From: Onchidella celtica
Lineage: Eukaryota > Mollusca > Gastropoda > Systellommatophora > Onchidiidae
DNA length: 64,000 bases
Direction of reading: 5' to 3'
NCBI GenBank assembly: GCA_963931925.1
Contig: OZ007569.1
Coordinates: forward strand, 10,691,663-10,755,662
The notes under the pieces were generated by a model that was given only the letters and a program-made list of their open reading frames with translations, did not search any database and had not been told where the DNA came from. Shown here one piece after another: positions 55,701-61,700 of this stretch. Position numbers and translations under genes: made by a program. The stretch's first letter is position 1; each line of letters starts with the position of its first letter.

Positions 55701-58700
55701 CATGAATGAAAACAAACAATAAATGCATTATACATTATACAGAATAAATGGTTCACAGAATTCGAACTTACCCGTGTCACATACTCAAACTCAATGATAT
55801 ATTCTGGCAGAACCAGGTTGTTGTTGAAGATATACCACTCACACTGTCTTGCACTACACTCACAACCATTTTCCTCAGATTTTTCTATTGACAAAGTAGA
55901 AGACCATAAAGATGAAGAAAGCTGCTAATTCTTATCACGACAATAAAATTCCATACTGTTTTGGAAGTACTGACATTTCTGACTCATATCACAATTTTGG
56001 GTGTTTAAAATATCCACTTACACAGCTTAATTTACAGCGAAATGAGGGGTGTGATGCAATAAAAGAAATTCTTCCATCTTACAACATCTCTGATCACAAA
56101 TGAATGAAATACAAAATCTTGCAAAACAGAATGATAAGTCCCCAAAAGAAGACAAGCCTTTATCAACTCCCCTTCTTGCAAAACATGCATGATTAGTATG
56201 TTTTTCTTCCCTTGAAATTACATTGAAAGATGCCTTCATAATGGTACACCATAAAAAAAAGATGACTCTGTAGACACACCAAAAGGCAAAATTTTGATGC
56301 GTATCTGTGTCTTTTGTCTCACCTGGTATTGCTTGAATGCTAAGCACCAAATTATTTAATTTTGGTATTTGTTCTCTTTTTATCACAAAAGATACATCTG
56401 CACGATGTTTGAATGGAAATAGTGGCAGCTAAAGAGTATAACAGCACAATGTGGGATTTTGATAATGAAAAATGAAATGTCAGGAAAATTATCACAATTT
56501 GAAACTATGTTCTTGTTGGACGCTGGAAAGAGATGAATAAAATCTATGATGTCTAAATATGAGTTTTGGTTTTAAACAAAACAGACTGTAGCACTTACTT
56601 TCTCGAGGAATACACTTTTTCCTTGGCTTGAAAACTGAATCCATCTTTGGATAGTTCCCTCTACAGATCCTGTACATAGAAACATGATACTTAATATCTG
56701 TGATACTGAAATTTTGGTTCTAATAAGAGTTAGTGTATTCTAAAAGTTCATATTTTGTGTGTGCATTTTTATTTCCTTATTTAATAAATCAAATATATCA
56801 ATAAATTAAATGTTTTACTAGAGCATGATGAACACATCTCTTGTGATTCAGATTCCTGAACAATACATGCTATTTCTCTTGAATTGCTGGATGTATTCCT
56901 TTTCCATAAAACATGCAAGTTATTCATATCAAATACCAGTGAATTAACCACAACTCACAGTCTGTCATCCTTGGCAACTACACTTTTTCCCAAGTGGGTC
57001 TTGGCAACAATAAGCTGACCTGAAGAAGACATTTCAGAAACAAAACTTATGTACATATTTTTCTACATGCGAAATCAGTAACTATGTACTGATAATATGC
57101 TATGCTTCTGTCAAAATGGTCAGTTTAAAATGTAGTACCAAACATACTGCATAAGAGAACAATGTTTCCAAACCAGACATATTGGCCTTACGCTAGACAG
57201 CTCTGCATTATGAGCCACACAACTATGCACAGGAACATGATTACCAGAAAACATGGAGACAGAAAGACCACCATTGACTTTCATATTATTACTGCTGTAC
57301 AACTTGACCATTCTGCCCCACAAGTTGCCAAGACAAATATAATGTTGACAATAATAACAATAATGATAAGCAACAAATGTGACAACAATTTTTCAGTTAC
57401 CATATCTGAATGGACAGCTGTCTATCTCCTCTCTTTCTCTATTCAGTTTTATGCAGTGAGCAATTCTACGTCTGTCAGCTAAACTGATGCTGTTACTGAG
57501 AGGCACAGCACCATCTCTTCCAAGTTGCTGAAATGCAAAAATGTATATAATGATCAATGGGAACTTGGCACAAATGGCTTCCACATTTAGGCAAACTGAG
57601 TTGTACAACATGTGTCAAAATTTATAAGAATAGTGGCATAAAGTTTAATAGAACTGATATGAGTCTTTAAACTTTTAAACTGAAGGTAAATAATAGAATT
57701 TAAATCAAGGATAGTTTAAAACAGATATCCAGAAAATGTCATAGATAATTTATGATAGCAAACTGGTTAAACAATACATGCACTTTGTAAGCTGTTTTGG
57801 TAATAGCAATTCAGCAATGAATCTGGTAGCCTCCCCTTGGGAATAGATTAGTGTTTTCAGTATCTCCTGGGAAAGATTTATGTTTAAAAACTTACACCGA
57901 TTTAATGCTGGCATAGAATGAAGAACCTGCCAGCTCCCCAGGAGGTAAAAACATTATCTTGCATTGACATACGATCCACTTACCATATATGTTTGTTCAT
58001 CTAAGAAACCTTCCTCAGGTATGCGGAAATTTTCACTCAAGCCTCCTGCCATCTCCGGGTCTGACATCCAAAACAAGTACTCCAAGGATTTTTTGTATGC
58101 TGTGTTCCTAATGTGACCAACAGCAAAGGGTAATTGTAAAAGACCATTTAATTAAAGAAAATGCCAGATGAAATGGAAACATTTGAAAATTTTTATTTTA
58201 AGTCAAAGTAATGCAAAAAAGAGAATTACACAGCTTTGCATAAGAGGTGATTTTCATTTCTGATTCATTGTAACATTTCTTTATTGCTTCCTAAGCAGGG
58301 CCTTGCAATAACAACCTTTTCTCTTTTTTGCTATAGTTTAACTTTGTTCCAAGCTCCGTTGTGACCTCACAGATTTTCTGCTTTTAAAAAAAAAAATCTT
58401 AGGCACATCAGAAACACACAGTTCTCAAGCAGTGTTTGCTCTAATTTACTTCTTAAAGAGAACAGTGAATGCAGATAAAAGAAGCAGTACTTAGAGTGAT
58501 TCTCAGCCTAGAAAATGTTCTGAAGAAATAAATTAATCCTGCAGTTAAGTAAGTTTGGCAACAAGAAATCAATTGGATTGAATGTTAAAGCAATCTACCC
58601 AAGCTAATATTTGCCTCAGTTGTAATAATTCATTAGCAGCTAACTCACAAACTGCTTTGATTAAATCTGGAAACCACTGGAAAAAATCACATGGTATCAA

Positions 58701-61700
58701 AAATATAGTTACTCCAGCTCTAATACACTTTCTGATGTAATGAGGCATATTAATCAACAAATCCTTGCAAAGGGACGACATAAAATTAACAGATATCAAG
58801 AAACTTACTTGACACCAGGATAGTACTCTCCCTTGTTGCTCTCAGTCAAGGCGACAATTGACTTGTCAAATCTTGTTCGAAGCATACGATTATGAATGCG
58901 AATGATGCGATGAATTTTGATGCCCACTACTCCAAGATCTCTATAATCATATGCACAGAACCGTGATAAAACTAAATCATGGCAGGATGTGAACCTGTGG
59001 AAAGTTAGATGGAACAATAATTATAATTCAGGCGGATTTATATGATAAGTTAATGTATCTGCATGTTCAAATCACAGCTGTTCCTAGTCAATTTGTAAGT
59101 GGCCATTCAGTAAAAAGTAGGAAACTGCCTGTATGCGAAACTGTTGTATAACATGGCTACCGTGAACCAGATCAACATAGTTACACTGGAACAAAGATAC
59201 TTGGATTCCACAAAACAGGAGATTCTGTGTTTTGATATCTTCTATTTTCTAAAGAGCTTCTCCCTTTTCTTTTCTTACCTCCATGGCTAAAAAATCAGAA
59301 AGAATGACAAAAATCAGCAAACATCCCTCAACTTACCATACAATGCTTCCACAGCCTCCACTTATTAACGACTCATTTAATATCAAAATCTGAAACCATG
59401 AATAAATTACGGCGAAAGTCTTCTTTTATCAATGCTGCACAAACTGATTCAACTTCTGACAAGGACCAGCTGTATTATTTCTGATCAAGAAAGACCTGCA
59501 TTTCATTATCAGCATCCGACCATTGTGCTCACTGTCTGACTATGTAGTCTCATACATTTTCAAAGCAAGTCTTTGCTCAAAGAATGGTCATTCCAGATAG
59601 CAAACAGAACCAGATGAAATGATGATGCAAAGGAAAATGAAATAGTCAATTCTTAGAGCTTCTGCAATGTACTATGCCAAGATCAGAAATTTTTTCACTC
59701 AAACTGGACCCCTTTATAATTTGAAACCAATTTATTTTTGCTGCAAGTAAAATTAATTTTCAGCTGGACGGTATTTAGGTTTGGAGGAAACATTTATTGA
59801 ACAAATTACAAAAACTTGAAATTTCCTTTAGTAGAAGACCATTCATAAGGCATGTACGTAAATTCCGCAGCAAGTTAACTGTCTTTACCATGGATCAGAA
59901 GACTGCCCATCTTCAAATCGTACATTTCCACCCGTCTCTAGTTCAACCAGAAGACGATTGACCATCATGTCTGCCATCTGTCGCACACGTGATTCAGACA
60001 CCTTGGCGTAACTCTCTATACTGTGGAAGACATCAAATAATTCAACTAAGATAGAATAATATAAGACTTGGGAAATTGAGATGTCAAAGACACCCTTCAG
60101 GAACATTTTCAGTGTGTGACTCTTTCAGTTTTCTGATAAATCTGTTGATCTGTTTCATCATCAAAATATAGTAAGATCACATCCGTGTCAAAATTCCCTC
60201 CACTGGTCTCATATTTCAATTCTAAACAGACAGAAACTATTCTTTTTTCTATGATCAATGAAACGAAAACTGTAACCACATATATATATGAAGATGGACT
60301 TGTGAGATAATCTCTGCTATCTCCTCCACTGTCGCCGGTTATAAATTATAGACAAACAAAATTTTCAGGCCTAGTAGAGTTCACCTCAAGCTAGGTTTTG
60401 GTAAAGAGAAAACTATTCAACTTATGCTTGTTTCCATTGTCTTTTGTTGGTATTTAATCAGCTTTGCACATTTACAATTTTCAGGCCACTGCTAGAATTA
60501 GAGAGGAAGACCTCCATTAGTCTGTGAGGTACTGCTGTTCACTACATATAAGCATGATAGTAAAACTGGTGTGGGATCATAGAGTAGTTGCTCATAAATT
60601 ATGAAGTGTTTCAAATATGAAAGTGCACCTGTAGGGACAATTGCCCCCAAGGGTTTTCTTGCTTTGTGTAACTTCTGATATAGGCATTATCTATTCAATC
60701 ACTTTCATAGAAGGTAGATCTCTTCTTCTCACCCGTAGGTCATATATCTGAATTCACTTTCATAATGTTCTGGGTTTCTGCCACAATCAACTGTAGGCAT
60801 CATAATTAAAGTTTCTTTTTTTTTTTTCACAGACAATGTTGTTGTTCAGCTTTGCAATTAGCAAATATCTGAAACTAGCTGAGTTCCCGGCCCTGCCCGG
60901 GATAAATTGATTTATTAGTTTCAGTTCTGGGTGATTATTATGGACCTGCTTCACTTTGCCTGTTCCTTTAGCTTTATTTTATTTTAGTTTGTTTGTTTGT
61001 TTTTAGATACGTTTTACTGCTCTCCCTCTGCGCGTTGACGTCCTGCGCGTCCCGCCAGCATCCGTCAAATGGCTACGGTTTGTGCATGGGTTAGTTAGTG
61101 AACACATCGCAGGAAGTGATAACGTCATGTGTTAATGGAAAAGAAATATTATATTTTCCTAGGCATAATTATTGAAAACACAAACCTGTGTACTTTTGGC
61201 CCTGCAGCGTCAATGTCCCAATTCCAGACCCTTTCTTTTTCCTAGTCTAGGCACATTGAGAACACACTAAGTTTCATACTTGATAGTCTAATCCTCAATC
61301 TCATCATTCAAACCAGTCCTAACCGGAAGTTGTTTTGTGAGTGTGATACAGATACCAGAACCCATCTCAATTACGTACATTTGCCGAAAAAATAGACCGA
61401 TCGCCAATGTGTCACAACCTAGAAACTAATACAAACGTTCTGCGAGTTATTAATTATTTTTTCATTTTCTGTGCCGGCGACACGACGACAGTCTTTACTA
61501 AGCGCTGTATAAAATCTGAGGGCCACCGAATCAGCATCAACAGAGGAGTAGCGAAAGGCGCGCTGCAATTGTCGTAAGGTTTCACTTTTATTAATATAGA
61601 TAATCTAACTTTAACCCTTTAGAGACGGGGGTATTTTAGATGTTACCCATCTAGAAAAAACAGGCATTCACAAGATCAAAAATGATAACGTGTTTACAAC

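Follow-up and report, generated by a model that had tools for sequence, protein, structure and literature searches.

A divergent, probably inactive PARP-like domain within an LRRC9 gene of Onchidella celtica

Analysis of a 64,000-nucleotide stretch of the Onchidella celtica genome (hereafter the window; contig OZ007569.1, positions 10,691,663 to 10,755,662) points to an LRRC9 gene in which seven exons would encode a divergent PARP-type ADP-ribosyltransferase (ART) fold with LRRs after it (elsewhere before it too). The His-Gly of motif I has been lost and the Tyr of motif II probably also, so that ADP-ribose transfer is most likely absent; the dead ART pocket and the LRR regions would then serve as a binding or scaffold module for a protein or ligand, as also proposed in PMC7955679. 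We hold this explanation, taken as a whole, with high confidence. The finding of an inactive PARP-like domain in LRRC9 holds, but it has been in print since 2021 (PMC7955679): the ART fold, the family and the pseudoenzyme prediction come from the literature, and the present analysis contributes the exons, their frame, the downstream LRRs, the family motifs and a weak but specific PARP match. It confirms that one further genome carries the published pseudoenzyme family, and it refines the probable motif III residue.

Gene structure and the LRRC9 family

The ART-like domain is encoded by seven minus-strand exons (60020..55772), each with an AG acceptor and a GT donor (Table 1). When joined they give 271 amino acids in one frame with no stops, and the frame carries on, in phase, through the next two exons to a stop-free total of 386 amino acids. 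Eight consecutive in-phase joins make it very probable that this is a real gene. A sequence-only reading of the same DNA had placed a PARP-like fold at 55772..60020; these limits are exactly the outer splice borders of the seven-exon block, and all five peptides that it quoted were found on the minus strand. An exon candidate at ~59390-59337 was dropped: by our reading it starts in phase 0 and the preceding exon ends in phase 2, whereas exons 1 and 2 can be joined to each other with the phase kept. The stretches 56440-56320 and 55690-55560 were likewise dropped, since the joins from exon 6 to exon 7 and from exon 7 to the post-ART exon are in phase without them.

Table 1. Features of the putative LRRC9 gene, in window coordinates
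Feature	Position	Strand	Evidence
ART exon 1, lead-in, peptide ending SSDPW	60020-59889	-	AG acceptor, GT donor, phase
ART exon 2, resembles the PARP strand preceding motif I (by eye only)	58994-58809	-	Splice sites, phase
ART exon 3, motif I position is Trp119-Met120 (Trp codon 58070-58068)	58107-57984	-	Splice sites, phase; LFHGT of PARP15 aligned by eye
ART exon 4, probable motif II Ser162 (codon 57485-57483, by eye) and DSCPFRY(G)	57527-57401	-	Splice sites, phase
ART exon 5, strand, inside the Pfam PARP match	57019-56959	-	Splice sites, phase
ART exon 6, YPKMDSVF where PARP15 has (Y/F)DSV; inside the Pfam PARP match	56669-56599	-	Splice sites, phase
ART exon 7, most likely motif III Glu249 (codon 55840-55838) and PEY-x2-EFEY motif	55884-55772	-	Splice sites, phase, Pfam PARP match
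Post-ART exon, acidic linker (NDSDSDSD)	55036-54879	-	In phase with both neighbours
First LRR exon after the ART domain	54531-54345	-	In phase; Pfam LRR_4 E 6.6e-5 for the surrounding ORF
Further LRR ORFs: 52572-52766, 50102-50329, 48466-48858, 45142-45393, 41195-41629, 39876-40127, 39156-39497	39156..52766	-	Pfam LRR matches
Candidate upstream linker exon of the LRRC9 gene, runs off the window; not joined	63822..63998	-	Open frame at window edge

LRR families were matched by eight of the ten downstream minus-strand ORFs scanned (Pfam, E up to 0.1; best 1.3e-13), the two without a Pfam LRR match being 51340-51708 and 42817-43050. The LRR ORFs in 39156..52766 are probably exons of the LRRC9 gene too, although their joins were not worked out. 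Within the window, LRRs are seen only downstream of the ART domain; any N-terminal LRRs would lie beyond the window end, where the candidate linker exon, which has no Pfam match, is cut off. Adjoining that candidate is a tandem pair of 126-base copies (63312-63437 and 63447-63572) that are 93% identical and spaced by 135 bases.

The name LRRC9 for this gene is suggested by architecture and motifs. Wyzewski et al. (2021; PMC7955679) describe the central domain of LRRC9 (human residues 392-625) as ART-like, nearest to the PARPs, nested between LRR regions, with its catalytic residues mostly lost and the proteins 'most likely pseudoenzymes'; a review also names LRRC9-ART as a predicted pseudoenzyme (PMC10211241). 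The published distribution covers all vertebrate classes, a further 11 animal phyla (Mollusca and Annelida among them) and several lineages of protists, plants and fungi (PMC7955679). The window's copy shares with this family the order ART then LRR, the lost motif I and, probably, the lost motif II. Of the family motifs given in PMC7955679, PEY-(2)-EFEY is matched exactly by PEYIIEFEY, [DE]xxxFRHG is present as DSCPFRYG with Tyr in place of His, and PR[IL] is loosely matched by RRI. The copy differs in having Trp-Met at motif I where the human protein has Tyr-Val, Asn where the motif has Asp before PEY, and a motif III residue discussed below (PMC7955679). The ART domains of TASOR and PARP13, inactive according to the same paper, likewise belong to larger proteins and have the ART fold but an incomplete active triad; they differ from LRRC9 in their partner domains, and in a published CLANS analysis the TASOR family and LRRC9-ART form separate clusters (PMC7955679).

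Active-site residues

The HG histidine, which the sequence-only reading had taken to be lost, is indeed replaced: aligned by eye, LFWMS stands against LFHGT of PARP15, and motif I reads Trp119-Met120. We agree with that reading on the tyrosine as well, in that motif II probably carries Ser162 (SISLAD against TYFAV of PARP15), a placement that was also made by eye. PMC7955679 treats the motif II region of LRRC9-ART as ambiguous and offers 'SIS' there too.

A glutamate had also been reported to stay at the last strand. A Glu is present, but motif III is most likely Glu249 and not the Glu of PEY, which is a small addition to what is in print. With motif III placed on Glu249, the best ungapped segments on that diagonal score 30 (PARP14) and 40 (PARP15), compared with only 14 and 16 when it is placed on Glu261 of PEY; with the PARP1 tail the two placements are tied (21 vs 21). 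The scored segments start at residues 252 (PARP15) and 260 (PARP14), and Glu249 is reached by gapless extension of 3 and 11 residues respectively. Placing motif III on Glu249 equates the PEY of the window with the PEY of PARP14 and PARP15, in which the motif III residue is Leu (Table 1 of PMC7955679). In human LRRC9, the triplet QCK supplies Lys604, which precedes the Pro of PEY by 11 residues (D609-(5)-PEY; PMC7955679). Glu249 lies 11 residues before Pro260 in the triplet QCE, and because the offset is the same and the triplets correspond, there appears to be a Glu here where the human protein has a Lys. The authors of PMC7955679 suspected that their own alignment near EY[VI][VI] might be an artefact and that EY[VI][VI] might instead correspond to the motif of the catalytic Glu; the PARP14 and PARP15 tails argue against equating the two.

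A Glu at motif III raises the alternative of an active but unusual ADP-ribosyltransferase, or of some other use of NAD, with Glu249 catalytic and Trp and Ser replacing His and Tyr. We regard this as improbable. The PARP14 and PARP15 diagonals do place Glu249 on motif III, but this placement depends on gapless extension past the scored segments, and the PARP1 tail does not decide between the two placements. PARP9 (Q-Y-T) has mono activity according to Table 1 of PMC7955679, whose abstract also states that atypical activity of LRRC9-ART cannot be excluded; the Onchidella copy, however, has lost the His-Gly that binds nicotinamide. The human protein has Lys at motif III, a position that is poorly conserved across LRRC9-ART (PMC7955679), so Glu is not a kept feature of the family. 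A lone acidic residue without the His and the Tyr is insufficient to claim catalysis, and a pseudoenzyme remains our preferred reading.

Strength of the PARP resemblance

The 271 residues were compared with 24,736 Pfam models and gave two matches, the best to PARP (PF00644; E 0.02, 14.8 bits) and the second to AbiJ_NTD5 (E 0.13). The PARP match runs from residue 182 to 267 of the protein and from position 110 to 198 of the 199-position profile, covering only the profile's C-terminal half; its score is below the curated gathering cut-off of 26.7. PARP was hit by none of nine shuffled copies of the 271 residues; one of the nine hit a different family (E 0.42). A 270-residue join with one Lys fewer gave a PARP E of 0.079. 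With this join or with the last 89 residues, phmmer found nothing among PDB chains (E up to 10), and no NCBIfam family was matched. Among viral contigs there was no match to short near-exact peptide patterns of the domain; seven stretches in prokaryote genome contigs matched such a pattern, none of which encoded a relative.

Pieces of PARP15, PARP14 and PARP1 taken from PDB entries were also aligned by the Smith-Waterman method, with 2000 shuffles each. The 32-residue tail of PARP15 scored 40, which no shuffle reached, and a 121-residue piece of the same protein also scored 40, reached by 36 shuffles. The PARP14 tail scored 30 (71 shuffles) and the PARP1 tail 21 (1451 shuffles, equivalent to no signal). 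The single-sequence resemblance of the window's copy to PARPs is above chance, weak but specific, which is suggestive and not decisive. Relative to the PARP catalytic domain (PF00644; the PARP15 tail was the nearest of the three tried), the order of elements and the C-terminal PEY strand are shared; the copy differs in lacking His-Gly and probably the catalytic Tyr, and in its sub-cut-off Pfam score.

More sensitive searches have been published for the human protein. The LRRC9 domain matched PARP10 in HHpred (E 6.2e-23), was assigned by Phyre2 at 100% and scored -12.5 in FFAS, and it went undetected by Pfam (PMC7955679). By FoldSeek, 19 human proteins resemble the PARP1 ART domain at E <1e-5: the 17 canonical PARPs, LRRC9 and TASOR (PMC10450202, 2023). 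The profile and structure comparison of vertebrate LRRC9 that the sequence-only reading had proposed is thus already in print and positive, and together with the Pfam match it supports the PARP-like fold inside LRRC9 that was claimed there. That the resemblance is accidental or convergent, the domain being an unrelated island outside the LRRs, is very unlikely, since the sub-cut-off Pfam score, the absence of a PDB match and the shuffles that reach the PARP15 121-residue and PARP1 scores would all fit it, but the HHpred, Phyre2 and FoldSeek results on human LRRC9 do not.

A possible ciliary role and other features of the window

PMC7955679 proposes an innate-immune sensor role for LRRC9. As a tentative alternative, which we consider possible though somewhat short of even odds, LRRC9 may be a component of motile cilia or flagella, with the dead ART fold acting as an axonemal or flagellum-assembly docking module and not as an immune sensor. 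The Glu of motif III, where the human protein has Lys, would then mark a surface that is free to vary because it never binds NAD. This suggestion is based on the partial fit of the published taxon list and on the protein having been confirmed in human sperm: LRRC9 is listed in several protist groups and many animals, not including nematodes, and the plants with LRRC9-ART are mosses, liverworts, club mosses and green algae, with a water lily as the only flowering plant (PMC7955679). PMC7955679 mentions neither cilia, flagella nor motility, and the idea is therefore not in that paper, to which alone this statement applies. PMC10425847, a study of cilium profiling, does not name LRRC9 in its main text, and in one paper in which both LRRC9 and cilia occur, LRRC9 is found only in a figure legend, as the label of a gene.

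Other observations speak against a ciliary role. Sponges and arthropods have flagellated cells, and axonemal structures have been solved. LRRC9 is nevertheless reported as missing from sponges and arthropods, with records from a water lily and from fungi (PMC7955679), and the phmmer search returned no PDB chain for the domain (E up to 10), from a set that may or may not include axonemal structures. If the ciliary role is true, an orphan human gene would gain a function and the flagellum a PARP-like pseudoenzyme; the ciliary reading offers a testable alternative to the printed immune hypothesis.

The window also contains features outside the LRRC9 gene model. ORFs 4446-4733 (+) and 20784-21059 (-), which have no Pfam match, carry a common hydrophobic pattern (WPxGxxCAxxFVxLSP, by eye) in opposite orientations and are possibly a small diverged gene pair. 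An open 1443-residue retrotransposon ORF lies at 8034-12365 (-), with the integrase domains (residues 580-751) preceding the reverse transcriptase (residues 1070-1228) and RNase H. In Ty3/gypsy elements the usual order is reverse transcriptase before integrase; the integrase-first order resembles that of Gmr1-type elements. Direct repeats at 6036-6335 and 13938-14237 flank this element, 7902 bases apart and identical over the 300 bases reported, and two more ORFs beyond it recur with this spacing; the element may have inserted recently, with LTRs. A second, similar element at 28283-32660 (+) has a reverse transcriptase that is divided between two frames, with the integrase again first, and no direct repeats of at least 60 bases were found around it (27000-34500). 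Between the LRR ORFs of LRRC9, an 85-residue ORF at 46147-46404 (+) matches Pfam RAG1_imp_bd (E 3.7e-6; 27.2 bits, above the cut-off of 23.3) and, weakly, zf-AD. It is perhaps a RAG1 N-terminal-like piece derived from an N-RAG-TP or RAG-like transposon, elements that are known in molluscs.
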